A stretch of 34,609 nucleotides of DNA from a virus (IMGVR_UViG_3300017613_000771:1-34609), one strand, 5' to 3'; shown: positions 2 through 31,281, counted from the stretch's first letter. Translations and numbers: made by a program. The notes: generated by a model not told the origin, from the letters alone.

Positions 2-346
2 TCGAGTTCAAAATCTTCTTTGATAGCAGTTCCTCCTGCTTTTCCAGTTGGGCCGAGAAGACCCGAACTGATCTGGTATGACTGCTCATCGTCATCGTCA
101 AGCTCATCTGACTCGTCATCATCGAGTGAGTCATGGTCTTCCTCGTCAAGTACTAACGTTGTATCAGTAGTAATTCCCACAGGATGGTATAACGTTCCTG
201 TGATCATGGTAAGAGAGCCTGTAGTAGACAAATTTAATCTTAAAGTTTCATTAGTAGAAGATAAAGAGATCCCGATAAGGATTGAATCTATTAAGTCTAA
301 GAAGAAAAAGGTAGATATTACAATCAAAACGATAAAAATTAAGTAA
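2..346 (+). CDS. 3' end of a serine-rich virion structural protein (5' end outside window)
   Basis: The frame is open from base 2 to the stop at 344-346, so this is the C-terminal end (about 114 residues) of a longer gene. It shows a short Pro-rich piece (VPPAFPVGPRRPE), then about 25 residues that are nearly all Ser with single Asp, Glu or Trp interruptions, then a beta-rich segment ending in a Lys-rich tail (SKKKKVDITIKTIKIK). The poly-Ser linker is of the same kind as in the two large proteins at 23532-27453, so I infer a tail-fibre or appendage protein built from modules joined by serine tracts. A TTG at base 20 could be taken as a start but is probably internal. A late promoter for the next operon follows directly. 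Confidence 0.7.
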   Translation, partial: SSSKSSLIAVPPAFPVGPRRPELIWYDCSSSSSSSSDSSSSSESWSSSSSTNVVSVVIPTGWYNVPVIMVREPVVDKFNLKVSLVEDKEIPIRIESIKSKKKKVDITIKTIKIK

Positions 347-11988: not shown

Positions 11989-12018
11989 GAATTATAAACA
12001 ATCAAAAAGGAAATAAAA

Positions 12019-12893: not shown

Positions 12894-12898
12894 AACCC

Positions 12899-12927: not shown

Positions 12928-12958
12928 GAATTATAAACAATCAAAAAGGGAGAAAAAA

Positions 12959-13150: not shown

Positions 13151-13164
13151 AAAGGAGATTACCA

Positions 13165-13449
13165 TTGAAAAAACAATTCGATACAGGTTGCCAGGATTTA
13201 GGATTTAGCGGTGTTATTTCGCTGTATGAGGCCAAAAATATTTTTCTAGGCCTTGGCATCGAATACGCTCATATCGTTGAAAATCGGTTCAATGAGCGCA
13301 ATGGACGTGTGAATTCTGGAATCCATGCATATTTTGTCAATGAAGATGGAAACGAGCTAGGCTATTATACACCTTGCATGGATTCTGTCATGGTTTTTGA
13401 AAAACCTAGAATCGTCGGAATCGTTCAAAATTTACATTTCATCGAATAG
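13165..13449 (+). CDS. Small early protein of unknown function (TTG start)
   Basis: The start is chosen at TTG 13165, since AAGGAG (13152-13157) lies 7 bp upstream. An upstream TTG at 13141 lies inside the previous gene and has no ribosome site. The 94-aa protein appears to be a compact alpha/beta domain: GVISLYEAKNIFLGLGIEY, then GIHAYFVNEDGNELGYY and FEKPRIVGIVQNLHFIE. No active-site motif is recognised. It is co-transcribed with the genes on each side. Confidence 0.6.
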   Translation: MKKQFDTGCQDLGFSGVISLYEAKNIFLGLGIEYAHIVENRFNERNGRVNSGIHAYFVNEDGNELGYYTPCMDSVMVFEKPRIVGIVQNLHFIE

Positions 13450-13462
13450 AAAGGAAATCATT

Positions 13463-14035: not shown

Positions 14036-14244
14036 AAAAATCTTTTCGAATTAAACTCAAAGTACAAAAATGCGATATCATATTCTCAGAAGGCATTGAA
14101 CCTGGAGTACTAGGCTTTAAAGATGTAGATTATGATCTCACAGAGGAAGAATATAAACATCCATTGTTTATCAAAAGTCTCCTTGACGAGAGAGAGGCTC
14201 TACTTGAAGAAATTATTGAATTCGAAGTGGAGGAAAATAAATGA
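14032..14244 (+). CDS. Small acidic early protein (GTG start)
   Basis: GGAGG at 14023-14027 is correctly placed for GTG 14032, which overlaps the previous stop. The 70-aa protein has a basic beta-rich N-terminus (KKSFRIKLKVQKCDIIF) and an acidic C-terminal helix (LLDEREALLEEIIEFEVEE). It shares 4 bp with the next ATG. No family recognised; the N-terminal beta segment resembles that of the 56-aa protein at 14410 (MKYRIKIVKV). Confidence 0.6.
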   Translation: MKKSFRIKLKVQKCDIIFSEGIEPGVLGFKDVDYDLTEEEYKHPLFIKSLLDEREALLEEIIEFEVEENK

Positions 14245-14408
14245 TTGATCTATCTCAAGTTATAAAAATTGACGGTATCAGTTACGAGGATAGAGAAAGA
14301 GCTATCAAAGAGAAAGAGAGAAAACTTTGGAAAGTAGTCAAGATCGGAATCGTTATTTCTCTCACTGCTTTTTTTGGTGGGATAGGAATGATAATATTTG
14401 GAGGTTAA
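14241..14408 (+). CDS. 55-residue single-pass membrane protein
   Basis: ATG 14241 follows AGTGGAGGAAAA and overlaps the previous stop by 4 bp; the stop is 1 bp from the next ATG. The first 30 residues are charged (YEDRERAIKEKERKLWKVVK), and residues 35-53 form a transmembrane helix (IGIVISLTAFFGGIGMIIF). The topology is probably N-in with the tail at the membrane. The exact fit between coupled genes supports it. Function unknown. Confidence 0.6.
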   Translation: MIDLSQVIKIDGISYEDRERAIKEKERKLWKVVKIGIVISLTAFFGGIGMIIFGG

Positions 14409-14409
14409 T

Positions 14410-14580
14410 ATGAAATATAGAATCAAAATAGTCAAGGTTACTTCTCCTTCTACGGAGCGACCTGTTAAAGACTTCGACATTGAGAAGGTAGAAGTTCAAG
14501 GGAAGAATATCAAAATCAAATTCTTACCGACATTGGCTGCTATCAAGAAAGCAATAAAAGAGGATATCTTCAGACCTTAA
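14410..14580 (+). CDS. 56-residue basic early protein
   Basis: GGAGG at about 14400-14404 precedes ATG 14410. The frame runs upstream to 14398, but the ribosome site favours this ATG. The protein is basic with a beta-strand N-terminus (MKYRIKIVKVTSPSTERP), a second beta segment (VEVQGKNIKIKFLPT) and a short basic helix at the end. It may bind nucleic acid; that is inferred from composition only. It lies 15 bp upstream of DNA ligase. Confidence 0.55.
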   Translation: MKYRIKIVKVTSPSTERPVKDFDIEKVEVQGKNIKIKFLPTLAAIKKAIKEDIFRP

Positions 14581-14595
14581 AAGGAGAAGTAAGAC

Positions 14596-15936
14596 ATGCA
14601 TGAAATTATAAAAGAACTCGAAAATGAGTCAAGCAAAAACGTTAAACTTGAGATACTGAAAGCAAACATCGACAATGACTTGCTTCGACAGTTCTTCGGA
14701 ATGGCGCTGAATCCGCATATTACATTTGGTATCAAAAAGATTCCTGCTCATACACCAAATGGCTCATCCTTTCCTATGGCAGATCTTCTGCCATTGGCTA
14801 GCCGTGAAATTACAGGTAACAAAGCTATCGAACATTTATGCCAGATTTTAAATAGCTGTTCGGCTGAAACTGCTGATCTTATTAGCCGTATAGTAGCTAA
14901 AGAAACAAGGTGTGGAGTATCTTATAAGACTGTCAATAAAGTTTGGAAAAAACTGATTCCTACTACTCCATATATGCGTTGTGCTTCTGCCAATGACAAA
15001 AACTATGATCGTGTACACTATCCCGCAATCGTGGAGAAGAAAGCAAACGGCGAGTTTTTGAATATCATTAAACGCAATGGACAGATTGAAATTCAATCTC
15101 GCAGTGGCAAAGTATTTGACTTGTTTAATTGTCTTGACGATGACTTGCTATCAATGGATGGAGACAACTTCGTTATTCATGGTGAAGGACTTGTCTTAAA
15201 AGAAGGTCGGAAAATCGATGACGAGGATGCCTTCCTTGATCGTAAGACTGGCAATGGTATCATCAACAAAGGTCTTGCTGGAACTCTCTCAATAGAAGAG
15301 GCAAGCCGTATAGTAGTTGAATGTTGGGATACTGTTGAGTATGACAAATGGATCGATGGTAAAGACGATACCGTTTATAATGATCGACTTCGCAATCTAT
15401 CTACTTTACTATCAGCTTCTAAAAAACTAATTGTCATCGAACATCGTATAGTCAACAATTTCGGAGAAGCAGCGAAGTACTACAATGAACTTCTACAACG
15501 AGGAGAGGAAGGCGCTGTACTCAAAAACCTTGATGGTATTTGGAAAGATCATACTTCACCGAATCAGGTTAAAATGAAAGTCAAAGATCCTGCTGATCTG
15601 CTTTGTGTCGGTACTTATCCTTTTAAACAGTCAAGCGTTAAACGTGGCAAGAAAACCGTAGACTCTAGTAATTGGATCGGTGGTCTGATTCTCGAATCTT
15701 CAGATGGTATTATTAAAGTTAGATCTGGATCTGGTTTGTCTGATGAAGATCGTAAAAAAGATCCTAGTGAGTATATCGGTAAAATTGTTGAACTTGAGTA
15801 TAATGAAATTACGGATGATAAATCAACTGGTCAGAAATCTCTGTTTCTGCCTATCTTTGTAGAAGTCCGTAACAACAAAGATGAAGCAGACGATTATGAA
15901 ACCATTCTGGAAAGATCAACGTATGTCAAGAAGTAG
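14596..15936 (+). CDS. gp30: ATP-dependent DNA ligase, gp30-like
   Basis: A 446-aa ligase that aligns well by eye with T4 gp30: shared blocks include LTGNAAIE-like ITGNKAIEH, NKVWKKLIP (T4 NKVWPGLIP), NGIINKGLAGTLS (T4 NGIANKSLKGTIS), EGAVLKNLDGIW and GGLILESSDGIIKVRSGSGL. The nucleotidyl-transfer lysine should be K149 in motif I, which here reads KANG (149-152) where T4 has KADG. Motif III reads HGEGLVL and motif V is VKMKV. The enzyme seals nicks in Okazaki fragments and recombination intermediates. A good AAGGAG site precedes ATG 14596. It is the last gene of the early operon. Confidence 0.92.
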   Translation: MHEIIKELENESSKNVKLEILKANIDNDLLRQFFGMALNPHITFGIKKIPAHTPNGSSFPMADLLPLASREITGNKAIEHLCQILNSCSAETADLISRIVAKETRCGVSYKTVNKVWKKLIPTTPYMRCASANDKNYDRVHYPAIVEKKANGEFLNIIKRNGQIEIQSRSGKVFDLFNCLDDDLLSMDGDNFVIHGEGLVLKEGRKIDDEDAFLDRKTGNGIINKGLAGTLSIEEASRIVVECWDTVEYDKWIDGKDDTVYNDRLRNLSTLLSASKKLIVIEHRIVNNFGEAAKYYNELLQRGEEGAVLKNLDGIWKDHTSPNQVKMKVKDPADLLCVGTYPFKQSSVKRGKKTVDSSNWIGGLILESSDGIIKVRSGSGLSDEDRKKDPSEYIGKIVELEYNEITDDKSTGQKSLFLPIFVEVRNNKDEADDYETILERSTYVKK

Positions 15937-15943
15937 AAACAAT

Positions 15944-15976
15944 GAAGGGGAATGCCTCGTCAAAACATTCCCCTTC
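15944..15976. terminator. Perfect hairpin between convergent operons, probable bidirectional terminator
   Basis: GAAGGGGAATG (15944-15954) and CATTCCCCTTC (15966-15976) form an 11-bp perfect stem with an 11-nt loop, between the ligase stop and the end of the minus-strand operon. There is no long T tract on either side, so it may be a weak intrinsic terminator or an mRNA 3'-end stabiliser for both converging transcripts. Confidence 0.6.
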
Positions 15977-16038
15977 TCCTCAATGGGATTACGGGCTTCC
16001 TCATAACCACGTTTCCCAATATTACTTATCTATTCTTA

Positions 16039-16218
16039 TCACGCTACTTCGTCCTCTACAGTAAAATATCCTATATATCCACAGGAAATACATCTAAAAG
16101 CTAACGATTTAAGGAACTCTTCTTCTGAGAAGAATAAGTTGAGAGTAGTACTTTCGCATTCGTCACAGCACAGTTGCTTCATTTTATTAAGCATGGGTAG
16201 CTTGACGATATCTGCCAT
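16039..16218 (-). CDS. Zinc-ribbon-like mini-protein
   Basis: A 59-aa frame on the minus strand begins at ATG 16218, with AGGAGGAGTC directly before it, one of the strongest ribosome sites here. It contains CCDEC (C18-x2-C21) and CISCGY (C43-x2-C46), a standard zinc-ribbon spacing. Such mini-proteins can act as transcription or replication accessory factors, but nothing shows which. It is the last gene of the minus-strand late operon. The rest of 15977-16038 holds no gene that I can see. Confidence 0.65.
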   Translation of the reverse strand: MADIVKLPMLNKMKQLCCDECESTTLNLFFSEEEFLKSLAFRCISCGYIGYFTVEDEVA

Positions 16219-16226
16219 GACTCCTC

Positions 16227-16424
16227 CTATTTCTTAATCATTTTTTCTACTTCCATCGAAATTTCACCTTGCCGATCCATTGATAGATTCTTAAACACAG
16301 GGATCTTCATCAGTGCCTTGTAGATATCATCAACTGTCTTGCTTTCTGTTAGCCACAGTTCCGTAGCGGCTTTTTCGACATCTGCTTGGAATTTCTCTAT
16401 CTTCTCTAATATACCACTCCTCAT
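16227..16424 (-). CDS. Small helical protein of unknown function
   Basis: A 65-aa minus-strand protein with AGAGG upstream of ATG 16424, overlapping the preceding gene by 4 bp (ATGA). It is mostly helical and charged: ILEKIEKFQADVEKAATELW, then DDIYKALMKIPVFKNLSMD and a Lys-rich end. It is probably co-translated with the proline/glutamate-repeat protein upstream. No family recognised. Confidence 0.6.
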   Translation of the reverse strand: MRSGILEKIEKFQADVEKAATELWLTESKTVDDIYKALMKIPVFKNLSMDRQGEISMEVEKMIKK

Positions 16425-16879
16425 TTCATATACCTCTCAAATGGAGTCTCTAATGACTCTTTGACCTTTTTCTTAAAGGCAGGGCCAACTTTTTTCTTTT
16501 TCGGTGGAGGATCTTCTTCCTCTTCCTCTTCTTCCTCTGGTGGTGGCTCCTCTTCCTCTGGTGGTGGCTCCTCTTCTTCTGGAGGTGGTTCGCCCTTCGG
16601 GTCTTCCTCGTCCTCTGGAGGTGGTTCTTCCTGTTTGACCTTAACTGGCGCTGTCTCTTTGTCTACATTACCCCACTTTTTCTTTTTGTCTCGTATATCC
16701 GCTACAATGGCGTCATTAGCATCATTGTTATCTTTACTCTTCATTGCATCGAGAGCTTTAGTGCAGATCTCTATATATCGCTTAACCTTCTCAGAAGCAT
16801 AATCTCCTCCGACCTCTGGCTCTGGTAGAGATAGTGCTTGATCAATAATGCTTCCTTCAAGTAGTTGTCTTAGTTTCAT
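16421..16879 (-). CDS. Protein with Pro-Glu repeat and capsid-targeting-like N-terminus
   Basis: A 152-aa minus-strand protein. It starts MKLRQLLEGSIIDQ, in which LLE8/G fits the (L/I)xE protease-site pattern and the length of a T4 capsid-targeting sequence. Residues about 88-130 are tandem PPPEEEE units, an extended and strongly acidic rod-like segment, followed by basic PKKKKVGPAFKKKVKESLE. The charge split suggests a spacer between a folded helical N-domain and a basic tail. Overlaps both neighbours by 4 bp. No homologue recognised. Its presence in the lysis operon is odd if it is a head protein. Confidence 0.6.
   Translation of the reverse strand: MKLRQLLEGSIIDQALSLPEPEVGGDYASEKVKRYIEICTKALDAMKSKDNNDANDAIVADIRDKKKKWGNVDKETAPVKVKQEEPPPEDEEDPKGEPPPEEEEPPPEEEEPPPEEEEEEEEDPPPKKKKVGPAFKKKVKESLETPFERYMK
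16502..16630 (-). repeat. Tandem coding repeat for EPPPEEE units
   Basis: Three to four near-copies of a 21-bp unit (GGTGGTGGCTCCTCTTCCTC as read on the plus strand) encode tandem EPPPEEE units. Repeat number could change by slippage or recombination. Confidence 0.7.
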
Positions 16880-17580
16880 TTCATTACACTCCCTTGATTT
16901 CCTTTTCCTGGGATATGAGAAGGAGTTCTAAAGGCAACAGTCATGCTACCTCCCATCATACGTGGCTTCTCGCTCCTCATGAATACTTTGCCTCCAGAGT
17001 CTATAGCTATAGAGCTTACTCGATTGTCTCTTGTCAAGACTCTCACGCTCCAACCTGGAGCTAGCTTCTCAATATAGAAATTTTTCTTAGATAGTACTTC
17101 CTTGGCTTTATTCTCTTTAGCCTTTGTCTCCTTATCATCGTTAGCTATGTCATTGATTTTCGCTTGGATCTCAGGAGTGTTAGGTTTGAGATAGACTACC
17201 TTATGTAATCCCATTTTCTGGATGAACTTCTTTACTTTCTTTTCTGCTGCCTCGACATCGAATTCTCCTTTGAATCCATCCCACGGCAACATCTTGGCAA
17301 GCTCCGTACTACCAAACATCCATTTTGTCTTGGCTTGCTTTATATTGACATCCTTACCAGATAGCTTGGCAGTCCAGTCTTTGCCTTTCGGTTTGATGTC
17401 CCAACCTCTACCAGCATAACGATTAGTCTCTACGTCTAAGCCAGCAGCATCAATGGCTTTCACCATTTTGGTTTCGAACTTCTTCCCGTTCTTACCCCAA
17501 TCCTCGATGGTCTTTTCAGACATATCACCATCGATGATATCTAGATCTTCATATCCATCTAAGTATTCTTGAAATTTCAT
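16876..17580 (-). CDS. Late protein of unknown function
   Basis: A 234-aa minus-strand protein, with AAAGG before ATG 17580. The N-terminus MKFQEYLDGYEDLD resembles the tagged proteins but has no (L/I)xE. An N-terminal domain (about residues 30-110, including GKKFETKMVKAIDAAGLD and NRYAGRGWDIKPKGKDW) has the look of a nuclease-type or structural alpha/beta fold: GWDIKPKG and NIKQAKTKW could be a PD-(D/E)xK-like D...QxK. That reading is speculative. The C-terminal domain is beta-rich and basic. Part of the late minus-strand operon. Confidence 0.6.
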   Translation of the reverse strand: MKFQEYLDGYEDLDIIDGDMSEKTIEDWGKNGKKFETKMVKAIDAAGLDVETNRYAGRGWDIKPKGKDWTAKLSGKDVNIKQAKTKWMFGSTELAKMLPWDGFKGEFDVEAAEKKVKKFIQKMGLHKVVYLKPNTPEIQAKINDIANDDKETKAKENKAKEVLSKKNFYIEKLAPGWSVRVLTRDNRVSSIAIDSGGKVFMRSEKPRMMGGSMTVAFRTPSHIPGKGNQGSVMK

Positions 17581-21566: not shown

Positions 21567-22034
21567 ATGATAAAAAATAATAGACTTAGGAAGCATGAGA
21601 AGTACTACAGTCCTAAGAACATAGAAAAATATGTAGGGCAATATCCCATAATCACCAGGAGTTCATGGGAGTATCGATATTGCGAATGGCTGGATATAAC
21701 TCCAGCAGTTTTAGAGTGGTCTAGTGAGAGCCATTGTGTAAGGTATTTAGATCCTTTCAAAGTGAATAAAACTAGACGATACTATCCAGATTTTTATGTT
21801 TGCTTTCAAACTGAAAAAGGCAAACGAAGATTTTTAGTCGAGGTGAAACCTGATAAGGATACGAAGCCTCCGACTAAAAGAGGTAAGAAGAGCGCAAAGA
21901 CTAGAGCAACTATGACTCGTACTTACCTAGTCAATCAGGCGAAATTTAAAGCAGCAGAGTTGTATTCTAAGAAAATGGGATTTGTATTTAAAGTACTGAC
22001 AGAAAAACAATTATTTCGGAATAAGAGAGGTTAA
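21567..22034 (+). CDS. gp4: Head completion protein, gp4-like (nuclease fold)
   Basis: A 155-aa protein resembling T4 gp4 (150 aa) in sequence: a Tyr/Arg-rich start (KYYSPKNIEKYVGQYPII), then SSWEYRYCEWLD (T4 SLWERKFCNYLD), VLEWSSE (T4 VLEWASE), RYYPDFYV (T4 HRYFPDFWV) and FLVEVKP (T4 FLIEVKP). The E...PD...ExK arrangement is that of PD-(D/E)xK nucleases such as TnsA, although gp4 acts structurally to stabilise DNA-filled heads for tail joining. The frame extends to TTG 21558; ATG 21567 gives the expected length. Confidence 0.85.
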   Translation: MIKNNRLRKHEKYYSPKNIEKYVGQYPIITRSSWEYRYCEWLDITPAVLEWSSESHCVRYLDPFKVNKTRRYYPDFYVCFQTEKGKRRFLVEVKPDKDTKPPTKRGKKSAKTRATMTRTYLVNQAKFKAAELYSKKMGFVFKVLTEKQLFRNKRG

Positions 22035-22035
22035 C

Positions 22036-22338
22036 ATGGGAAAACATAGTTCAATAGAAGACAAGATAGGAAGTTTTTTAGACGAGACTACAGCAGTAGG
22101 TAGGCACTCTTCTAATTTCGTAGGTCATCGACCAATCCAGATTATGAAATGGTGGAATAACTACCGTCCAGGTGATAGGCTGAATGTGGATTTTTCAGAA
22201 GATAGTATTTCAATCTTCGGCACGAATTCAGAAGGTCAATTTGCTGGTAGTAAAGCCGAGAAGGAAATGTTCATCGATGATCCAGCAGAAATGGATGCCT
22301 TCAAAGATGCTTCTGGTGATATCTGGAATTTTGTATAA
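22036..22338 (+). CDS. Small late protein with capsid-targeting-like N-terminus
   Basis: Starts 1 bp after the gp4 stop, with AGAGG upstream. The 100-aa protein begins MGKHSSIEDKIGSFLDETTA, LDE17/T being the candidate cut. The rest contains IQIMKWWNNYRPGDRLNVDF, a small beta-rich domain, and an acidic stretch (KEMFIDDPAEMDAFKDASGD). No recognised family. The tandem palindromes at 22343-22380 directly follow its stop. Confidence 0.62.
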   Translation: MGKHSSIEDKIGSFLDETTAVGRHSSNFVGHRPIQIMKWWNNYRPGDRLNVDFSEDSISIFGTNSEGQFAGSKAEKEMFIDDPAEMDAFKDASGDIWNFV

Positions 22339-22342
22339 AGAG

Positions 22343-22380
22343 ATACAAGTAGTTGTATTGAAAGATACAAGTAATTGTAT
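22343..22380. repeat. Two tandem palindromes in front of a late gene
   Basis: ATACAA-GTAG-TTGTAT (22343-22358) and ATACAA-GTAA-TTGTAT (22365-22380) are near-identical 16-bp palindromes whose starts lie 22 bp apart, about two DNA turns. They end just before the AAGGAGGAG ribosome site of ATG 22392. They could be a dimeric repressor operator pair, or in mRNA two tetraloop hairpins (the second with a GNRA-type GUAA loop) that gate translation. Confidence 0.75.
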
Positions 22381-22391
22381 AAGGAGGAGTA

Positions 22392-22682
22392 ATGGATAAA
22401 ACAGTAGAAGTAATTCAAGAGGCATACGAGAAGAATATTCTCTTAACTGAAGAGACTATTGACTTTATGGCAGATGCTTTCGCTAGAATGCTAATAGGCG
22501 ATAGAAAAGCCGCAATGAAGCAACTACAAAGGGTAGTCAATTCTCCTATCAAAGGAATCGATGGTAAGGATGGAATTCTTAACAAGGTTCTGGATGACGA
22601 AACAGGAGACATGAGCGAGTATAACAACCTTTTTAATAACATGAGAAAAGGGTTCGCTAGAGTTATAAAACAAGGCAAGTAA
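22392..22682 (+). CDS. Small late protein with IQEAYEK-LLTE N-terminal tag
   Basis: A very strong AAGGAGGAG site precedes ATG 22392. The 96-aa protein starts MDKTVEVIQEAYEKNILLTE; the stretch IQEAYEKNILLTE is shared almost residue for residue with the gene at 2039, 20 kb away, and with 31288, although the bodies are unrelated. The mature part is helical (FMADAFARMLIGDRKAAMKQ) with a short flexible stretch (SPIKGIDGKDGI). No family is recognised. The shared N-terminus marks it as a candidate capsid-targeted protein. Confidence 0.65.
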   Translation: MDKTVEVIQEAYEKNILLTEETIDFMADAFARMLIGDRKAAMKQLQRVVNSPIKGIDGKDGILNKVLDDETGDMSEYNNLFNNMRKGFARVIKQGK

Positions 22683-22698
22683 AAGGAGATAATTTGTA

Positions 22699-23223
22699 AT
22701 GCCAGACACAGGTATAACTAGACATTTAAAGAAGAAATTTTCAGGTGTTCTTTGGCAAAGTGGTCACTTCTATAAGTTCAAATATCAAGGATGGAGAAAT
22801 GACAAGACTCCTCATATCATTTTCATGTACGCCTACTCTGGTAGGCATCCCAATACTGGAAGACAATGGAGATTCTTCCAAGCAATCAATCTGTCTTATG
22901 TTCCGAGAGCAAAAAGAAAGAAGTTCATGAAGTTATATCAACAGTCTTACGAGCGAAGAAAAGGCAAGATGACATTTGTTTGGAGAGATATAACGACTAG
23001 GTATCCTGGATTAAAAATAGCAGTACGGAGATACTTTTACTCTCCTAGTTACTACATTATAAATCCAGAAGAAGTTCCCTTCGATGAAGCGGAAGAATTT
23101 GTCATGGGAACCATGTTAAAAGATTTCAGTAAACAGACTATACGAGCATTAAGACAGAAGCTCAGAAATTTGAAAAAGAAAAAGAAGCAAAGGAAGAAAA
23201 ACAAAAAAGCGAAGAGGCTATAA
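22699..23223 (+). CDS. Basic late structural protein of unknown function
   Basis: A 174-aa protein with AAGGAG upstream of ATG 22699. The core is rich in aromatic and basic residues: HFYKFKYQGWRNDKTPHIIF, then YSGRHPNTGRQWRFFQAIN and LSYVPRAKRKKFMKLYQQ. The pattern F-x-Y-x(n)-INLSYVPRAKR reminds me of a T4-like cyanophage protein group with a G-x-NLHYL-x-P motif, of unknown role. The C-terminal 30 residues are nearly all Lys and Arg. It carries no (L/I)xE tag. A DNA-contacting head or neck protein is plausible. Confidence 0.6.
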   Translation: MPDTGITRHLKKKFSGVLWQSGHFYKFKYQGWRNDKTPHIIFMYAYSGRHPNTGRQWRFFQAINLSYVPRAKRKKFMKLYQQSYERRKGKMTFVWRDITTRYPGLKIAVRRYFYSPSYYIINPEEVPFDEAEEFVMGTMLKDFSKQTIRALRQKLRNLKKKKKQRKKNKKAKRL

Positions 23224-23538
23224 ATGGATAGAACATATCAAGAGCTAACACAGAATGACAGAAGAATAGTCGATCTAAACATCAATAGAAAAACTGGAGT
23301 AGCTTATACTCCTAGTGGTGCATCTTTTGAAGTAGTAGGTCACGAAAAACAAAACAGTGTTGTGCCTCTTACTCCTGCCACCGTTTTATATAACACAGTA
23401 TCGGCTTTTATCACAGAGACAGTAACCGCTAGTGCAGGAGATTATGATATTAAGTGGGAGATTCGTAAAGAGACTGGTAAAGGAATCCCTACTGTAAAAA
23501 GCTACCATTGCACACGCTTGCTGGTGATTGAATGCTAA
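23224..23538 (+). CDS. Small structural protein preceding the serine-tract fibre gene
   Basis: Starts right after the previous stop, with AGAGG upstream. The 104-aa protein has no tag and looks like an all-beta, immunoglobulin-like domain: VVPLTPATVLYNTVSAFITE, then DYDIKWEIRKETG and YHCTRLLVIEC. It overlaps the fibre gene at 23532 by 7 bp, suggesting the two proteins are made together and could form one appendage. No named family. Confidence 0.6.
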   Translation: MDRTYQELTQNDRRIVDLNINRKTGVAYTPSGASFEVVGHEKQNSVVPLTPATVLYNTVSAFITETVTASAGDYDIKWEIRKETGKGIPTVKSYHCTRLLVIEC

Positions 23539-24815
23539 GAGGCGAAACATATTATTATAATGATACAGACGTATTCATGTATGAGACTTGTTTACGGAGC
23601 AGTAGCTCTTCCTCATCTACGTCATCGTCATCATCTTCCGTAAGCTCCTCAAGTAAGAGCAGCAGCAGCGTATCTCTACCATTTAGATATCAAGATAATG
23701 ATCCTTGGGATTGTTACGACGAGATAGATGGAGCATCTTCCTCATCGAAGAGTACTTCATCCTCAAGCGAGTCATCTTCATCGAGCAGCGAGTCATCTTC
23801 ATCTTCGAGCGAGTCATCGAGCAGCGAGTCATCGAGCAGTTTAAGCTCATCCAGCAGCCTCTCGTCAAGCAGCCTGTCAAGCTCATCGAGCAGCCTGTCA
23901 TCGTCGAGTAGTTCCTCCTCGTCGGAATCGAGTTCGTCGCTATCCTCCTCGTCGAGTTCTTCTACTTCTTGTTATGTATCAGCAAACGATCTCTTTATAG
24001 GTATAAATGGATCTCAGCCAAATATTCACAGATGGTTGGAAGTTAGGAATGATGACATCCTGGCATCTATTCAAAATAATAAACTAAACTTCAATTCTGG
24101 AATCGGCGCTGTTGATAAAGAAGCAATATATAACTCTAGGTTTGCTATCTCTGGAGACTTTGATTTAAGAATTGAGTTTTCAGAATGGAGTCTAGGTGGT
24201 TCAACATCTGAGTCATCTCATATAAACTTTGTAGTTATAAGAGAATCCGACGATGAGGTACTTGGGCATCTCAGAAGAAGAAGAAAAGCTGAAGCTGCTC
24301 AATACGGATCGGATGGTTTAGATGTTACTATGGATTATGCTGGTAGCAGTGACGCATCTGGTCAATTCAGAATCACCCGAACCAGTGGTGAGATCAAAAC
24401 CTACGTATGGGATGTTGATGATTGGAAATGGGATGGTTTTACTACTGGAAGAGTAGTAACTAACAATGATAATTCTGATGTATACGTTCAATTAGCTTAT
24501 AAGAAATACAATGAGCATAGCTTAGAAGTAAACTTAGATAATTTCCATGTCTACTCAGGCTTAGTTGATTGTATGACTTCTTCCTCATCGAGCAGTTACT
24601 CAAGTTCATCAAGCCAAAGTGCTGGTGCTGATTTTAGAATAACAGAGGAATTAGATGGTAGAGTAACAGAGGAAGGAGATGTGAGAGTCTTGGAAAGTCT
24701 GTCTTCCTCAAGTACTAGTTCCTCAAGTGCGAGTTTTATTTTTACTTTTAGGCTAACAGAGGAAGGAGATGATAGACTAACTGAATTAGGAGATGACAGA
24801 ATAATTGAACCATAA
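23532..24815 (+). CDS. Serine-tract virion protein with lectin-like domain
   Basis: A 427-aa modular protein. It has a short N-terminal piece (MLRGETYYYNDTDVFMYETC), Ser tracts at about residues 23-47 and 67-147, a beta-sandwich domain at about 148-345 resembling a concanavalin A/LamG-type lectin fold (FAISGDFDLRIEFSEW ... HSLEVNLDNFHVYSG), two more short Ser tracts and a C-terminal repeat of RVTEEGDVRV / RLTEEGDDRLTELGDDRI. That last repeat type is common at the ends of phage fibre and appendage proteins. The domain layout suggests a tail fibre or surface adhesin that binds carbohydrate; no catalytic residues are evident. Codons for Ser are mixed (TCA, TCG, AGC, AGT, TCC). Confidence 0.7.
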   Translation: MLRGETYYYNDTDVFMYETCLRSSSSSSSTSSSSSSVSSSSKSSSSVSLPFRYQDNDPWDCYDEIDGASSSSKSTSSSSESSSSSSESSSSSSESSSSESSSSLSSSSSLSSSSLSSSSSSLSSSSSSSSSESSSSLSSSSSSSTSCYVSANDLFIGINGSQPNIHRWLEVRNDDILASIQNNKLNFNSGIGAVDKEAIYNSRFAISGDFDLRIEFSEWSLGGSTSESSHINFVVIRESDDEVLGHLRRRRKAEAAQYGSDGLDVTMDYAGSSDASGQFRITRTSGEIKTYVWDVDDWKWDGFTTGRVVTNNDNSDVYVQLAYKKYNEHSLEVNLDNFHVYSGLVDCMTSSSSSSYSSSSSQSAGADFRITEELDGRVTEEGDVRVLESLSSSSTSSSSASFIFTFRLTEEGDDRLTELGDDRIIEP

Positions 24816-24826
24816 CTTAAAAAATA

Positions 24827-24834
24827 TATAAATA
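24827..24834 (+). promoter_or_regulatory. T4-type late promoter
   Basis: TATAAATATCAATAG, matching the extended form at 28485. It sits 40 bp upstream of ATG 24874, which has its own AGGAG site. Confidence 0.75.
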
Positions 24835-24873
24835 TCAATAGAAAATAAATACTACTATATAGGAGAATTTAGA

Positions 24874-27453
24874 ATGGCACAGAAAACAATTACACAGTTA
24901 CCTTCAGCGGGATTTCCTGGTGGCGCAGACTTAGTTGAAATAGTCCAGAATGGTGGATCATATAAGCTATCGTTACAGGCCATCAAAAATTTCGTTTTAC
25001 AAAGCTCCTCTAGTAGTAGTGTATCCTCATCTAGTAGTAGTCTTAGCTCATCTTCACAGAGTTCTTCCTCATCAGACTCTCAATCTTCCTCTTCTCAGTC
25101 AGGGCCAGGATGGTTAACAGTCTGTGACGATGCCGATTGGATGGTATCAGGTGGAGAAGGGGCATGGAGTCCATCTGCATTTGGATGGAAGTCTACTACA
25201 GGCGTAGCTCCTTATTTTCTACAGCTAGTCCCGAAAAATGGTTGGGAAGTAGGTTTTAGACCTTCGACTTTACGTGTTGGTTATGTACCATCAGGTGGAG
25301 TTAATATGGAATTGGCAGTAAGTTCGGATGTATCACCATCTGGAATAGCTCTTGATTTAAATTACATCAGCGACTCAGAAATACCTCTTACTTTTGCTTC
25401 TCCATCGGCAGCATCGGATGATATAGCAGTAGTCAGATTTAAATCGGATACTGTATTTACTGTACCGTGTAGTGCTACCATTGAATTTTATTTGGGATCG
25501 AGTTCATCCTCGTCCTATTCGAGTTCATCGAGCGAGTCATCGAGTAGCTCTTCCTCTTCCTCGTCATTAAGCTCAAGCTCATCGAGCAGTAGTTCCTCGC
25601 TATCGTCGAGTTCATCCTCGTCGAGCGAGTCATCGAGTTCTTCAAGCTCATCGAGCAGCGAGTCATCGAGTTCTTCAAGCTCATCGAGCAGCGAGTCATC
25701 TAGCAGTTCTTCATCCTCGTCGAGCGAGTCATCGAGCAGTTCAAGCTCATCGACGAGTGAGTCATCGAGTTCTTCAAGCTCATCAACTAGCGAGTCATCG
25801 AGTAGCTCGTCCTCATCAACGAGCGAGTCATCGAGTAGCTCGTCTATCTCCGTTAGCTCATCTTCTACTAGCTCAAGCTCTGAGTCTACGTTCCCTCTTG
25901 AGTTAGAGCAATTAGATGTTGATGATACAAACTTTCCATCTTATCAAGGGGTAAAGGCCGATCAAAATTTTGATATAAGGCCATTTGCATACACTGGTGG
26001 TGAGTACTCACAAGGAATAAGAACCTATTCAGTTAATCCGTCATCTGGAATTTTGGACTTAGTAGATGAAACGCCTATAACTGATGGATATCTCAGGGCG
26101 ATATATACTGAATCTCCTGGCCCTTCTGCTTTAGTTTATGCCGCTGGAAATGAACTATATACTTGTTCAGTGAATACTACTGGAGGAGGAGTTCTATTAG
26201 ACAGCGTTGATAGTGGTAATAACTTTTATGATATTACAGGAGAAGGTGACGGTACTTATTTATATGCAGCATGTTTCCTTTACGGACTAGTCACTTTTGG
26301 ATTGTCGGGCGTTGGAATTCCTTATGAAATAGATCGTGAGAGAACTGGTGGTGGATCATCATTTAGGACTTATGGTATTATTACTGGTGCTGGATTTGTA
26401 TTTACCTGTGGAAGAAATAATCTACCATACGGAGTAAGGAGTTTTTCAGTAAGTGCTGGTATAATGACTCATATTGATACCGTAGAAACATCCTTCAACT
26501 TTAATGGAGTACACTACGCATTTGGATATTTATTTAGTGTTGGAAACCAGGGATTAAAGAGTTACTCAGTAAATGTCAGCGGTGGATTAACTAACATAGA
26601 TACTGATCATGACGGTGACTCTGATGAATGGATGAATGTATGGTCTGATGAGAGATGGCTATATGTTGCTTGTGGTAATGATCGTTCTATTAGAAGATAT
26701 TCAGTAAATGTCAGCGGTGGATTGGCAATGGAACAATATATAAATCCAGGTGAGTTTAATTCATTTAAAGATGTTCACGCATCCGAAGGCATTGTATATG
26801 TTGCTTGTGCTGGTGGTGGACTTAGAACTTATTCTATGTTACCACAAAGTAGTAGCTCAAGTTCTACTAGCTCATCAAGCGAGTCATCGAGCAGCTACTC
26901 ATCGAGCAGTAGCTCATCGAGTACCTCTTTTAGCTCATCATCATTGAGCGAGTCATCGAGTTCATCGACTTCAGTGTCTTATAGCTCATCTTCCTTTAGT
27001 ATCTATGATTATATGGGAACTGGTTGGCCTCTTGGTCGTGCTAGAATGCAAGTAGTAATAGGATCTCAATGGACAGGTGATGCTCCTTTTGAGGAAGATG
27101 ATGTAGTAACATTGATAGCGGGAAGCACAGGAGGAGCAAGTAATTATATATACTATTCCGAAGATGGCACTCAAACTGGTAATGATACAACTAATAGATT
27201 AGAAATCAGAATTGGTCAATTTACAGATCAGAGATTCTCGATAAGAGTACCGACTACTAGTTATAGTAATTTCCAAAAAGCTGTTTTAAAAACTGATATG
27301 GGAGTTGGTTCTAAGTATGATTTTAAAGAGTTTTGGGATGCATACACATCGTTTAGTGATTACAATTCATCCTTTATAACTCCTTATGGTGGTGGTTATG
27401 ATATATATTATCGGGATGAAGTATTTAAATCAATTACATTCTTAACACCATAA
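24874..27453 (+). CDS. Large serine-tract tail fibre/adhesin with propeller-like domain
   Basis: An 859-aa protein. Residues 1-42 (KTITQLPSAGFPGGADLVEI ...) match the start of many phage fibre proteins, probably the virion-attachment segment. Ser tracts lie at about 43-78, 208-339 and 659-709. Residues 80-207 are beta-rich. Residues 340-658 contain repeated blades: RTYSVNPSSGILDLVD, SYSVNVSGGLTNIDTD, RYSVNVSGGLAMEQY and repeated YVACxxxGxRTYS, typical of a lactonase-like beta-propeller. Residues 710-859 form a C-terminal domain of unknown fold. The likely role is host-surface recognition. The Ser tracts have an 11-residue period. Confidence 0.75.
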   Translation: MAQKTITQLPSAGFPGGADLVEIVQNGGSYKLSLQAIKNFVLQSSSSSSVSSSSSSLSSSSQSSSSSDSQSSSSQSGPGWLTVCDDADWMVSGGEGAWSPSAFGWKSTTGVAPYFLQLVPKNGWEVGFRPSTLRVGYVPSGGVNMELAVSSDVSPSGIALDLNYISDSEIPLTFASPSAASDDIAVVRFKSDTVFTVPCSATIEFYLGSSSSSSYSSSSSESSSSSSSSSSLSSSSSSSSSSLSSSSSSSSESSSSSSSSSSESSSSSSSSSSESSSSSSSSSSESSSSSSSSTSESSSSSSSSTSESSSSSSSSTSESSSSSSISVSSSSTSSSSESTFPLELEQLDVDDTNFPSYQGVKADQNFDIRPFAYTGGEYSQGIRTYSVNPSSGILDLVDETPITDGYLRAIYTESPGPSALVYAAGNELYTCSVNTTGGGVLLDSVDSGNNFYDITGEGDGTYLYAACFLYGLVTFGLSGVGIPYEIDRERTGGGSSFRTYGIITGAGFVFTCGRNNLPYGVRSFSVSAGIMTHIDTVETSFNFNGVHYAFGYLFSVGNQGLKSYSVNVSGGLTNIDTDHDGDSDEWMNVWSDERWLYVACGNDRSIRRYSVNVSGGLAMEQYINPGEFNSFKDVHASEGIVYVACAGGGLRTYSMLPQSSSSSSTSSSSESSSSYSSSSSSSSTSFSSSSLSESSSSSTSVSYSSSSFSIYDYMGTGWPLGRARMQVVIGSQWTGDAPFEEDDVVTLIAGSTGGASNYIYYSEDGTQTGNDTTNRLEIRIGQFTDQRFSIRVPTTSYSNFQKAVLKTDMGVGSKYDFKEFWDAYTSFSDYNSSFITPYGGGYDIYYRDEVFKSITFLTP
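25498..25888 (+). repeat. Serine-coding tandem repeat, 33-bp period
   Basis: About 390 bp encode almost only Ser, with Glu, Leu, Thr or Tyr every 11 residues (SSSSSSSSSSE, later SSSSSSSSTSE). The 33-bp unit around TCATCGAGTTCTTCAAGCTC occurs as exact neighbouring copies at about 25627-25692. Six different Ser codons are used. Confidence 0.85.
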
Positions 27454-27469
27454 AAAGAAGAGGTGAAAA

Positions 27470-28489
27470 ATGGTAGTAATAACTGGTGAGCCGAGAAGCG
27501 GCACTTCTTTAATGATGAGAATTATTGACTCTCTATTTATCGAGATAGCAGGAGAAAAAAGAAATCAATCTCATAGTAAAAAGAAAGAAGAAAGAGCAAA
27601 TTATTTGAATCCAGAAGGCTTTTGGGAAACCGAAGTCGTTACTAGAGGAATCAGGACAGAAGAAGAACTAGAGAAGTATAAAGACAAAGCTATAAAAATA
27701 ATTACTAGTGGGTTGTTACGAACTGTTAAACCCGCTATTGATGAGATTGATAAGATTATATTCTGTTTGAGGAATCCAAGGGAGATCATACAGAGTCAAA
27801 CTAAATTAGTCTCGAAAGTCATGGTAGCAAATAAGAATGATTGGAAGTTTGCTCCTGAACAAATGAAGACAAATTTTAATCGTTATATCTTATCAGTCGG
27901 TAGGTATATACTACAATCAAAAGATCTATGGAATAAAACACTAGTAGTTGATTACGGAGAACTAATAGAAGATCCTGATACGCAGATCAAAAGAATCTCA
28001 GAATTTCTTGAAGTTCCTCATAATCCAGAGAGTATGAGTATCATTAGAAAGGATCTCTATAGATCAATTCAATCACCAAAGAAAGATGAGTTAGCATATG
28101 ATATCTATAACTCAGTCAAAGTAAAAAAATTCTCTGAAGAAGTCATCGAAGAAATTAGAGAATTTATAGAAGAACTAAGAATCAAAAAAGTGACGTGGTT
28201 AGATGATACAGAATTTAAAACCTGGGTAATAGCAGGATGGAATCTCCACAGATCGCTTGCAATTAAAGAGAAACTAAGAAATACTTTAATTGAAAGTATT
28301 AGTCAAAGATCTTTGCCTATTGAATGTGGTTATTATGATTCTACTGGTAGTGACTATACGATTAAACGAGTAGAGGATTTGGGAGACTTGACCAGAAGTA
28401 CTATTAAATGCAGTGATAAAAATGAAGAAGTGACGAGAGAAAAATGTTTTAATTGTTGGGAACGAAAAAAAATGGGTGAAAAAATATAA
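27470..28489 (+). CDS. Sulfotransferase-like P-loop protein
   Basis: A 339-aa protein opening with MVVITGEPRSGTSLMMRI. The TGEPRSGTS (5-13) loop corresponds to the 5'-phosphosulfate binding loop of PAPS-dependent sulfotransferases, and IIFCLRNPREIIQS (96-109) to the 3'-phosphate site (R...S). In this family, sulfate is moved from PAPS onto hydroxyl or amino groups. The C-terminal part has Cys pairs (KCSDKNEEVTREKCFNCWER) that may bind metal. It lies directly after the serine-tract fibre gene and before the head operon. A role in modifying virion or host sugars is possible. AGAGG precedes ATG 27470. Confidence 0.7.
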   Translation: MVVITGEPRSGTSLMMRIIDSLFIEIAGEKRNQSHSKKKEERANYLNPEGFWETEVVTRGIRTEEELEKYKDKAIKIITSGLLRTVKPAIDEIDKIIFCLRNPREIIQSQTKLVSKVMVANKNDWKFAPEQMKTNFNRYILSVGRYILQSKDLWNKTLVVDYGELIEDPDTQIKRISEFLEVPHNPESMSIIRKDLYRSIQSPKKDELAYDIYNSVKVKKFSEEVIEEIREFIEELRIKKVTWLDDTEFKTWVIAGWNLHRSLAIKEKLRNTLIESISQRSLPIECGYYDSTGSDYTIKRVEDLGDLTRSTIKCSDKNEEVTREKCFNCWERKKMGEKI

Positions 28490-28492
28490 ATA
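28485..28492 (+). promoter_or_regulatory. T4-type late promoter for the head operon
   Basis: TATAAATATCAATAG overlaps the stop codon of the sulfotransferase-like gene and lies 37 bp upstream of the portal start. Confidence 0.8.
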
Positions 28493-28528
28493 TCAATAGT
28501 AAATATGTAATGTTAAAGGGAGACATTT

Positions 28529-30112
28529 ATGGCTTTATTTAAAAAAACGGATGCGAATCCAGAAGTAATAACAGAAGAGATTAAAGCATTTGAGCAAAAG
28601 GGCCAGTATAAGACTAGCCTAAAGAAGATCATGCAGACTAAGGGAGAGGGTTGGGAAACTATAGCCGATATTCCTGGGTATGGTGCGACTCAAATGCAGA
28701 GCTTCAATGTCTTCTACAATACCTATATCAATAGAGTATTTGAGACAGAGCTACAGCGAATAGAAGAGTATAGAGAAATGGCCTATGCTCCTGAGATCTC
28801 TGATGTTATAGAGGATGCCGTTAACGAGAGTACTCAAGAGGACGATGTAGGAGAAGTATTTCACCTAAACATCAAAGATAAAGACCTCCAGAAGAATGAG
28901 AACGTAGTAAGGAACTTAAAACGAGAGTTCTATGATATGTTCGTGGAGCGTCTACAGTTAAAAGAAAAAATTTGGGATCTCCTATGGACTTACTATATCG
29001 ATGGAAGAGTATACTATGAGAGAATCATAGACTCTGCTCATCCAAAAAAGGGAGTAATCAATATCAAGAGACTTCCTACGGAGACAATGGACTACTTCTA
29101 TGATCCACTATCAGGTAAGATAGTAGGATTTATACAATATCTTAAAAAAGTGAGGCGTCCAGCTAATATCAAGGAAGCAAAAGAAAGAGATGGAAAGGAT
29201 CTCATCTTCTTTAACCCGAATCAAATAGGGTTCATCGACTACGGTATCTATGGTAAGACAAGATACGAGGTCAGAGGATACCTTGAGAAGGCCAGAGTAC
29301 CTTATAATCAGCTAAAACTTCTTGAGACATCAGCTATTATCGCAAGAGTAGTAAGAGCGCCAGAGCGTTACGTGTTTAGGATCGATACAGGCAACATGCC
29401 TAGAGATAAAGCACTAAAGTATGTCGAGAAGATTAAACAGAAAATGCAGAAGAAGCAAACCTATGATCCAAAAACAGGTACGCTTACTCATGAGCCAGAA
29501 ATATTAGCTATCTTGGAGAACTTCTACTTGCCTCAATCGGCTGAAGGTAGAGGATCGAGTATAGAAACCATCGGTGGGAATACAAATATGTTTTCCGAAC
29601 TGGATGATATCTACTACTTCCAAAATAAACTTTACAGATCCTTGAAATATCCTATGAGTAGAGTACAGAATGCTCAAGAAGGTCGAAGTGGTGAGACAAT
29701 GTTTGGTCAAGGTGGTACTGCTGAGATCTCAAGGGACGAAATTAAGTGGGCCAAGTTCTTAGAACGTCAACAGAAGAGAATGTGTAAAGACTTCTTGGAT
29801 ATGTTCATACTCAACCTTGAGTTTAAAGGACTCAAGAAGCAGTATGAGTTGACTAGTAAGAAGATAGAAGTAACAATGAATCCTCCGTCACGCTATGACG
29901 AGCAAATGGAGCAGATGTTTAATGATACTCGATTTGCTAACTATGGGCAATTAGCCGATAGACCAGAGTTCTCGAAGTACTATCTAATGAAGAGATACTT
30001 GAAATGGGATGACGAGGAAATTAAAGAAAATGCTGAATCCCGTAAGAAAGATATCAATCTTGGCTTCTCAGAAGCAGACGATGGTGGAGGAGGAGGAGGC
30101 TCAAGGTGGTAA
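28529..30112 (+). CDS. gp20: Portal vertex protein, gp20-like
   Basis: A 527-aa protein (T4 gp20 is 524) with recognisable gp20 blocks: EYREMAYAPEISDVIEDAVN, WTYYIDGRVYYERI, IKRLPTETMDYFYDP, APERYVFRIDTGNMPRDKA, YVEKIKQKMQKKQTYDPKTG, ENFYLPQSAEGRGSSIETIG and DDIYYFQNKLYRSLKYP. Twelve copies form the channel through which DNA enters and leaves the head and on which the prohead is nucleated. It ends with a Gly-rich tail (DDGGGGGGSRW). GGGAG precedes ATG 28529. It heads the head operon just as in T4. Confidence 0.93.
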   Translation: MALFKKTDANPEVITEEIKAFEQKGQYKTSLKKIMQTKGEGWETIADIPGYGATQMQSFNVFYNTYINRVFETELQRIEEYREMAYAPEISDVIEDAVNESTQEDDVGEVFHLNIKDKDLQKNENVVRNLKREFYDMFVERLQLKEKIWDLLWTYYIDGRVYYERIIDSAHPKKGVINIKRLPTETMDYFYDPLSGKIVGFIQYLKKVRRPANIKEAKERDGKDLIFFNPNQIGFIDYGIYGKTRYEVRGYLEKARVPYNQLKLLETSAIIARVVRAPERYVFRIDTGNMPRDKALKYVEKIKQKMQKKQTYDPKTGTLTHEPEILAILENFYLPQSAEGRGSSIETIGGNTNMFSELDDIYYFQNKLYRSLKYPMSRVQNAQEGRSGETMFGQGGTAEISRDEIKWAKFLERQQKRMCKDFLDMFILNLEFKGLKKQYELTSKKIEVTMNPPSRYDEQMEQMFNDTRFANYGQLADRPEFSKYYLMKRYLKWDDEEIKENAESRKKDINLGFSEADDGGGGGGSRW

Positions 30113-30117
30113 AAAAA

Positions 30118-30125
30118 TATAAATA
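30118..30125 (+). promoter_or_regulatory. T4-type late promoter
   Basis: TATAAATAGTAATAG lies 15 bp before ATG 30141, so the predicted transcript starts right at the AGAGG ribosome site, giving a leader of about 10 nt. Confidence 0.75.
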
Positions 30126-30140
30126 GTAATAGAGGTATAT

Positions 30141-30446
30141 ATGAGACTAGCGAAATTCTTAGACAAGAAAGTAAAGAACATGGAAAAGGATAACGAGAAG
30201 TATACCAATCCTAAGAAAGATCCTAAGAAGAAAAAGGTCAAAGGCATGTGGGCCAGGAAAATGGATAACATGCAGGAAAGCATGTATATGGCTGGATGGA
30301 TCGCTATATATAATGGTAAGAAGTTGGAAATAAAAAAGTCAGAAGCAAAAGATCTATGGGCAGCAAAACAGCTAGCTATCAAGAAGCTGAAAGTACCCAA
30401 ATCTAAGCAAGGTCTTTTAGCTATAGATGTAGCATATGAAGAATAA
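30141..30446 (+). CDS. Small basic head-operon protein of unknown function
   Basis: A 101-aa protein with AGAGG before ATG 30141. The first half is very basic (MRLAKFLDKKVKNMEKDNEK, then KKDPKKKKVKGMWARK). The second half is a small alpha/beta domain, YMAGWIAIYNGKKLEIKKSE, then AAKQLAIKKLKVPKSKQG and LLAIDVAYEE, which I have seen as a stand-alone domain of unknown function in T4-like marine phages. It sits between portal and the gp67-like gene, where T4 has no counterpart that I can name. Confidence 0.65.
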   Translation: MRLAKFLDKKVKNMEKDNEKYTNPKKDPKKKKVKGMWARKMDNMQESMYMAGWIAIYNGKKLEIKKSEAKDLWAAKQLAIKKLKVPKSKQGLLAIDVAYEE

Positions 30447-30464
30447 ATAAGGAGGATGTGAATC

Positions 30465-30647
30465 ATGGATAAAGAGAATATCAAAAAGGCATTGGATCAT
30501 TTTGAAAATGATGAATTTGTTGACGCAAAAGAAATTTTAACCAAGGAAATTCAAGGCAAGAGAGATGACTTCGTTAAGGATAAGGTAGGTCTTAAAGATG
30601 ACATTACTCCAGCCGAGAAGAAGGACGACGACGAAACGGAGGTCTAA
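30465..30647 (+). CDS. Prohead core protein, gp67-like
   Basis: AGGAGG precedes ATG 30465. The 60-aa protein starts MDKENIKKALDHFENDEFVD and continues AKEILTKEIQGKRDDFVKDK, ending in an acidic tail (PAEKKDDDETEV). T4 gp67 has the same design: a short helical N-domain (IEAIKSNDLVAARKLF) and a highly acidic C-terminus, at the same place between portal and protease. gp67 is an internal core component that helps set head shape and is cut by gp21. Similarity is by pattern rather than strong identity; gp68 is the alternative. Confidence 0.65.
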   Translation: MDKENIKKALDHFENDEFVDAKEILTKEIQGKRDDFVKDKVGLKDDITPAEKKDDDETEV

Positions 30648-30651
30648 GACC

Positions 30652-31281
30652 ATGAGTAGATTGGGAAAACTAATAACAGAGTATAGCCAGGACTTCGAAA
30701 TTTCAGAAGAGAAGGGTAGTAAAGATATGTACGCAGTAGGTATCTTCTCTTCCGCTGAAATGAAGAATAACAACAAACGTAGGTATAAGAAAGAGATCCT
30801 TGAGCGAGAAGTAACTAAGGTTCAAGAGAAGATCGGGAAGAAATGCCTTTGGGGAGAGTTAGGTCATCCACCGAATCCAGAAGTTAATCCAGACAAGATT
30901 GCTTTACGGACTACTCAACTGGAATGGAAAGGAAACAACCTATACGGCAAGGCAAAGATCCTCGATACTCCTATGGGCCAGATCGCTAAAACTCTAGTCA
31001 AAGAAGGAGCAATGGGAATCTCTTCCAGAGGACTTGGTACAGTCGGTGACGATGGATACGTGAATGAAGACTTCCATCTAATCACTTGGGATCTTGTAAC
31101 AGACCCTAGTAACAAGCCTTCATGGGTAAACGGTATCTACGAGGGACAGGACTTCTCTATTCCTGGAGGTACAAACGGACTCAAAGAAGATCCTTCAGAG
31201 GATGATATCAGGGAAGCTCAAAGTTTTCATTATAGACAACTTCTGAAAATGATCGCTGAAATGCATAAGTTGATCGGATAA
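30652..31281 (+). CDS. gp21: Prohead core protease, gp21-like
   Basis: A 209-aa serine protease like T4 gp21: GIFSSAEMKNNNKRRYKKEI (T4 GIFMQAEVVNRNKRLYPKRI), GELGHPPNPEVNP with the likely catalytic His at 72 (T4 GELNHPPRANVDP), WKGNNLYGKA, and MGISSRGLG with the likely catalytic Ser at 124/125 (T4 GVSSRGLG). It cleaves scaffold, capsid and internal proteins after (L/I)xE during head maturation. Its own N-terminus has LITE10 and ISE19, possible self-cleavage sites. GGAGG at 30638-30642 selects ATG 30652 over an upstream in-frame start inside the previous gene. Confidence 0.92.
   Translation: MSRLGKLITEYSQDFEISEEKGSKDMYAVGIFSSAEMKNNNKRRYKKEILEREVTKVQEKIGKKCLWGELGHPPNPEVNPDKIALRTTQLEWKGNNLYGKAKILDTPMGQIAKTLVKEGAMGISSRGLGTVGDDGYVNEDFHLITWDLVTDPSNKPSWVNGIYEGQDFSIPGGTNGLKEDPSEDDIREAQSFHYRQLLKMIAEMHKLIG

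Follow-up and report, generated by a model that had tools for sequence, protein, structure and literature searches.

Tail-tube, capsid and fibre proteins of phages can carry added Ig-like domains (Big_1, Big_2 and FN3; PMC8718954, on tail tubes; Fraser et al. 2006), and those on tail tubes have been proposed to bind carbohydrate weakly (PMC8718954). In the polysaccharide-degrading enzymes of Saccharophagus degradans and Cellvibrio, polyserine linkers (PSL) separate functional modules; with the binding module kept on the substrate, the flexible linker leaves the catalytic module free to move (PMC2386152). Phage receptor-binding and baseplate proteins show contemporary mosaicism (PMC10684548). 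Here we describe a locus of a T4-like phage, located on a linear IMG/VR fragment of 34.6 kb (the whole stretch of DNA analysed, hereafter the window), and compare it with these systems. Like the Ig-like add-ons, the locus and its relatives have a promiscuous β-sandwich domain fused to virion proteins of unrelated phages, tail tubes included; unlike them, the folds here are lectin/CBM jelly rolls, and no Big or FN3 Pfam match was found in the window proteins or in the relatives' domains checked. As in PSL enzymes, poly-Ser separates a carbohydrate-binding(-type) domain from another functional domain, allowing movement. However, PSL enzymes are secreted, bacterial and catalytic, whereas the window genes are of phage virion type, have no catalytic domain found by Pfam and contain a 33-nt array and a 130-residue tract. 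As in the described mosaicism, protein fragments are shuffled among adhesion proteins; the main text of PMC10684548 mentions neither linkers nor serine nor disordered tracts, whereas the junctions here are poly-Ser and extend to sheath and tube paralogues. A literature search, with subscription journals mostly outside it, returned no paper on poly-Ser in phage virion proteins. Which hosts a phage infects and how it attaches to biofilm, mucus or particles depend on exchangeable adhesion domains, and our comparisons suggest a mix-and-match system for surface attachment in a group of T4-like phages.

Serine-tract genes of a T4-like phage

A gp20-type portal and a gp23-type capsid protein place the window among T4-like phages. 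Its marker genes are as follows.

8829: family B DNA polymerase
21558: head-closure protein
28529: gp20-type portal (PF07230, 8.5e-96; phrog_213/phrog_138 among the PHROG matches)
33525: gp23-type capsid protein (PF07068, 3.7e-72; phrog_213/phrog_138 among the PHROG matches)

All the material consists of metagenomic fragments. A portal query retrieved five near relatives (79–82% identity) plus contig L002 (99.76% identity to the window across 6544 nt), and a capsid-protein alignment query retrieved about 25 contigs (77–93% identity). Relatives encode a contractile sheath (phrog_23, 7e-98), a tube (phrog_45, 2e-31) and a gp6-like baseplate protein (phrog_219, 3e-36). One further contig, G026 (27.5 kb), was found by a single degenerate Ser-tract pattern; because it comes from the same sample as L002 and has leader repeats (34–42 nt) and exact tract DNA (26–32 nt) in common with the window, the two probably derive from one phage. 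More distant T4-like contigs (head-closure match, 41–46%) had no Ser tracts in the portions compared. The genes of interest, which we call B and A, lie upstream of the portal together with a sulfotransferase-family gene.

2..346, + strand: partial Ser-tract gene at the contig edge
23224..23538, + strand: 104-aa ORF overlapping the start of gene B; no match
23532..24815, + strand: gene B, 427 aa, open ORF
23598..23675, + strand: B Ser tract 1, residues 23–48
23736..23981, + strand: B Ser tract 2, residues 69–150
23982..24578, + strand: B ConA-like domain, residues 151–349 (BLAST segments, AF2, Foldseek)
24579..24812, + strand: B C-terminal part, two short Ser tracts and two RxTExGD segments
24874..27453, + strand: gene A, 859 aa, open ORF
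24874..25002, + strand: A anchor, residues 1–43 (ITQLPSAG..GADLVEIVQNGGSYKLSLQAI); weak N-terminal matches
25003..25101, + strand: A Ser tract 1, residues 44–76
25102..25497, + strand: A FRPS domain, residues 77–208 (AF2, Foldseek, BLAST homologues)
25498..25887, + strand: A Ser tract 2, residues 209–338, with a 33-nt period array at 25618–25838
25888..26847, + strand: A 320-aa domain with repeated 'YVACG..SYSVN' motifs; no family match
26848..27000, + strand: A Ser tract 3, residues 659–709
27001..27450, + strand: A C-terminal 150-aa domain; no family match
27470..28489, + strand: sulfotransferase-family protein (PF00685, 8e-17), starting 16 bases past A; no relative among cultured phages

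The initial annotation had described three structural genes with poly-Ser tracts, and this architecture, which can be read directly from the sequence, holds for 23532–24815, for 24874–27453 and for the partial gene at 2–346, in which a tract occupies residues 29–50 and the contig's first bases are already Ser-rich (SSSKSS...). Gene B, to which the 104-aa ORF is probably translationally coupled, runs N-module, Ser, 20-aa segment, Ser, ConA-like domain, Ser, RxTExGD, Ser, RxTExGD, with tracts at residues 23–48, 69–150, 350–363 and 389–401; its two RxTExGD segments (25 residues each) are 62% alike. The N-module of B stands alone (70 aa) in a relative (L005:73-282), whose product stops 22 residues past a 26-aa Ser tract of the same length as B tract 1. 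Gene A runs tail-fibre-type N-terminus, Ser, FRPS, Ser(130), 320-aa domain, Ser, 150-aa domain, with tracts at residues 44–76, 209–338 and 659–709. Across the window proteins, tracts of 13–130 residues separate blocks of 20–320 residues. The A anchor weakly matches annotated phage proteins (41–51% identity over 34–39 residues, E 0.01–0.3); these are the only three matches among 50,697 records, all at or near N-termini, namely a minor tail protein (Shewanella phage S0112), a tail fibre (ctpbd312) and a carbohydrate-binding protein (vB_OspM_OC). We infer a virion location for the window proteins. Queries with genes A and B returned no match among cultured phages, and gene A returned none in IMG/VR.

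Predicted lectin-type and CBM-like folds

The AF2 model of the ConA-like domain of B (pLDDT 71, pTM 0.75) is a jelly roll matching L-type lectins, GH16 and PL7, with 47 PDB matches in Foldseek (E 6e-5 to 0.001, probability 1.0, TM 0.44–0.59); the model is moderately confident, and its rmsd to the matches is 6–10 Å. Pfam returned DUF1583 only, below the cut-off. The fold points to putative carbohydrate binding. Members of the ConA family occur in window B, in a 2275-aa protein and a gp6-like baseplate protein of G026, and in three copies in a relative, G021; further domains in G021 are Laminin_G_3 (LamG, E 1e-12 to 8e-16), DUF2341 and a weak SPRY match.

The FRPS domain of A was modelled with higher scores (pLDDT 87.8, pTM 0.82) as a CBM-type jelly roll. 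Foldseek matches include CBM86 (6sgf, TM 0.65) and CBM29 (TM 0.6), within a TM range of 0.6–0.66 and E values of 3e-3 to 2e-2, 3e-3 being the best for CBM matches. FRPS is thus predicted to be CBM-like, which again points to putative carbohydrate binding. It had no PHROG match and no significant PDB sequence match, and 1 of 11 members weakly matched a Pfam family (DUF5640, E 0.049); FRPS defines a CBM-like family of phage domains that neither Pfam nor PHROGs contains. Its consensus found no match in cultured phages, and a BFVD fold search gave nothing below 1e-3, with several tail fibres among the weak matches. A DNA pattern for FRPS gave four matches in GTDB genomes and none was a domain relative, two being short ORFs with the motif by chance and two having no ORF that bears it. 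The remaining two domains of A match no family, although the 320-aa domain looks propeller-like by eye, and neither A nor B has a GH, PL or CE Pfam match.

One domain family behind several anchors

We cut all Ser-tract proteins at their tracts and compared the pieces, which fell into clear families. FRPS occurs behind four anchors in one phage clade, with a Ser tract at every junction.

Window A, residues 77–208: tail-fibre-type N-terminus, 33-aa Ser
L003/L007: post-capsid gene N-module, 89-aa Ser
G021, 42502–43386: sheath N-terminus, 14-aa Ser
G013, 12551–13600: tail-tube paralogue, 39-aa Ser

Homology across the anchors is direct: five of the six FRPS pairs align with BLAST E values of 3e-6 to 9e-14, and the window and L003 align with E 0.003. 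The anchors also occur in other states. The post-capsid N-module is present in L002 without Ser tract or FRPS, and the tail-tube paralogue (phrog_45, E ~1e-27) is bare in G011 and G005, carries Ser and FRPS in G013 and has three copies in G021, each joined through Ser to a different set of lectins. In G021, moreover, the first 115 residues of the sheath recur as a paralogue (87% aa and 77% nt identity to the full-length sheath gene of that genome), followed by Ser and FRPS; given the 87% identity, this fusion is fairly recent. The clade shows how an adhesin can arise from a partial structural-gene copy, a Ser tether and a lectin, and it widens the range of such add-on domains to the sheath, tube and baseplate proteins of a phage with a contractile tail. 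Beyond the clade, the unrelated contigs L119 and L120 encode a tail-tip-type protein (PHROG 'tail protein', E 2e-47) followed by a Ser tract and then FRPS, and L121 has FRPS with Ser/Thr linkers. The tract is not required for exchange, since FRPS in L123–L125 and the ConA-like domain of the G026 gp6-like protein come without one.

These comparisons bear out the proposal that domains are swapped between proteins at Ser-tract borders, one family standing behind different anchors in relatives. Calling the proteins fibres was too narrow, because in relatives the tracts occur on tail-tube, tail-sheath and baseplate-type proteins. Elsewhere in G021, a Ser-tract gene (t3) ends within DUF2341 at 53168–53189, and the next ORF, reached by an ATGA overlap, carries ConA and LamG, so that the two form a split or coupled pair. 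We considered a programmed frameshift joining 53168–55057 and 50805–53189 and rejected it, because translational coupling at the ATGA stop-start overlap is simpler.

DNA of the serine tracts

The largest tract (A residues 209–338) has 130 residues, 86% of them Ser, and an 11-residue/33-nt period (TRF at 25618–25838: period 33 nt, 6.7 copies, 80% match), its length and period being as first described. Interruptions are E, L, T, K and Y, so that the tracts are Ser-rich rather than pure poly-Ser. The long window tracts use all six Ser codons and yet contain exact copies, as had been claimed: the longest exact repeat is 44 nt in the 130-residue tract (maximum 27 in 200 Ser-codon shuffles) and 20 nt in the 82-residue B tract (shuffle maximum 17). 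Identical neighbouring Ser codons are depleted in the 130-residue tract (9 versus 17.1 expected, P=0.012) and strongly so in relatives (0 versus 15.1 in L003, among 78 Ser codons; 7 versus 21.8 in L006; 5 versus 14.9 in L004), whereas the remaining window tracts are not depleted. Codon scrambling therefore holds for the largest tract and the relatives, with no excess in the other window tracts. The proposed stabilization against slippage is an inference; neighbour avoidance is significant in just one window tract. The codon mixing may reasonably be read as a result of selection against slippage of triplets, although other readings exist.

Similar DNA is present in several genes, as the initial annotation stated. 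The longest exact match between the A and B tracts is 23 nt (shuffle maximum 19), and genes of what is probably one phage match exactly over 26–32 nt (shuffle maximum 17–18), including 32 nt between B tract 2 and a G026 tract, whereas tracts of different phages match over only 12–13 nt. Tract lengths also change in frame: those of L119 and L120 have 106 and 118 residues, with flanks of equal length. Neither constant tract length nor an absence of shuffling thus describes these relatives. Recombination within tracts may drive the exchange, as tract DNA common within genomes and fusion junctions at tracts suggest, but domains have also moved without tracts.

The 33-nt array and the in-frame length differences could also be explained if the tracts were neutral or slightly harmful expansions by slippage or unequal recombination, with the domains acquired by illegitimate recombination and the tract incidental, and the occurrence of the same domains without tracts fits this view. 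We consider it very unlikely: recent slippage of triplets would give the reverse of the over-mixed codon neighbours in three relatives and one window tract, many unrelated phages have tracts too, often several per genome, and a tract sits at the junction of each of the clade's four FRPS fusions.

Short-read misassembly at repeats might likewise create such tracts and fusions. Assemblers do struggle there, as five clade contigs (the window, L004, L006, L007 and L047) start or end within a Ser tract, and counts of presence and absence are consequently lower bounds. This explanation is nevertheless largely refuted and, in our judgement, extremely improbable, because L003 and L007, from different assemblies, have the same 89-residue tract and flanks, L004 equals L007 over their common 138 nt, reading frames are open through every tract and the fusion domains recur in independent contigs.

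A proposed tethering mechanism

We think it rather probable that poly-Ser tethers display exchangeable, putatively glycan-binding domains on the virion and that in-tract recombination assists their exchange. On the simplest reading, the design would be an anchor, a poly-Ser tether and a glycan-binding-type domain, optionally followed by another tether and a further domain. The anchor would fix the protein to the particle, by a fibre-type N-terminus in the window and by a tail-tube paralogue, a partial sheath copy or baseplate proteins in relatives. A soluble, disordered Ser tether would let the ConA-like or CBM-like domain reach outward and sample the polysaccharide of host cells or surrounding matter, and domains would pass between anchors and between phages with Ser tracts as the usual borders. 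In a contractile tail the tube lies under the sheath (review PMC8718954), where a tube-anchored domain would also lie; the tube paralogues may therefore sit at a tube end instead, or their domains may get past the sheath by way of the tether.

Poly-Ser in other environmental phages

Poly-Ser had been considered unusual in phages, which proved wrong as to frequency. A mixed-codon degenerate Ser pattern matched 102 IMG/VR stretches, and many of these belong to unrelated phages. Among the 80 loci listed, after removal of duplicates and doubtful cases, there are at least 78 poly-Ser ORFs in at least 48 loci, and 17 loci have two or more; genes for portal, capsid, minor tail and baseplate proteins are among the neighbours sampled. 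Judging from such gene contexts, poly-Ser in virion genes is recurrent, not rare, among environmental phages, and the pattern indicates that these proteins are common yet fragmented in short-read assemblies. Among the listed poly-Ser ORFs, 36 end C-terminally in the tract and 34 continue for at least 15 aa. Bare C-terminal Ser tails in other phages mean that tethering is not the sole use. Across loci L130–L209, many unrelated phages have poly-Ser tracts in several structural-region genes, about half of them bare C-terminal tails.

Tails with nothing left to link would be expected if the main role of Ser tracts were to be modified (by O-glycosylation, sulfation or phosphorylation), forming a hydrophilic virion brush with linking secondary. 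The sulfotransferase-family gene beginning just past A fits this, as do the epimerase/dehydratase (PF01370, 2e-23) and methyltransferase genes at G026 21869–24128 (L104), which suggest that this phage modifies sugars; glycosylated virions are known in mycobacteriophages, going by a citing paper (Freeman et al. 2023, as cited in PMC10877033). We nonetheless regard a primarily modifying role as unlikely. No sulfotransferase gene lies beside the portal in L003, L004 or L005, which have Ser tracts. Sugar-related families near poly-Ser genes (two GT25, one DegT and one epimerase among 109 ORFs) are not clearly above control phage loci (four cytidylyltransferases of 109). Most tracts of the clade, moreover, separate domains and lie where exchanged domains are joined.

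A broader version of the tethering reading is that codon-mixed poly-Ser serves as an in-frame joining element, at once a tether and homologous DNA, through which lectin or CBM domains could be moved onto any virion protein, partial copies of sheath and tail tube among them; several virion genes within a genome would then maintain long tracts of varying length for this purpose. We offer this tentatively and with some doubt. If true, the element would be a general, unrecognized diversification system of environmental phages, which the breaking of assemblies at the tracts would have concealed.

Other genes of the window and its relatives

Several further features were seen in passing. In G008 (25354–30770) and G025 (117–2825; L106 and L117), ORFs upstream of the portal resemble, by eye, radical-SAM enzymes, a DegT-type aminotransferase and an acetyltransferase, and occupy the place of the window's Ser-tract genes. 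One relative (G005, contig L035) encodes a PrkA–DUF444 (YeaH)–SpoVR trio at 10162–12162, 12167–13462 and 13462–14961 (Pfam E 1e-102, 4e-86 and 2e-94), a protein kinase gene set of the bacterial stress/sporulation type, here found in T4-like phages; PrkA-, DUF444- or SpoVR-like ORFs were also seen by eye in G008, G010, G011, G013, G016, G018, G021 and G025. The same contig encodes, at 15906–17003 within the phage genome, a protein with a PilX-type pilin N-terminus (E 4e-4, below the Pfam cut-off). In the window, a stand-alone RF-1 domain protein (peptide release factor-like, PF00472, 1e-18) lies at 6722–7090 beside a DnaB-type helicase. Many small window proteins (at 1645, 2355, 20900, 21145, 32182 and others) begin with a similar motif, MKFKxYLxE or MDxVxKYLxE; by a crude count it occurs in 7 of 40 (shuffles: mean 2.5, maximum 9), and these starts are reminiscent of the capsid-targeting sequences of T4 internal proteins.
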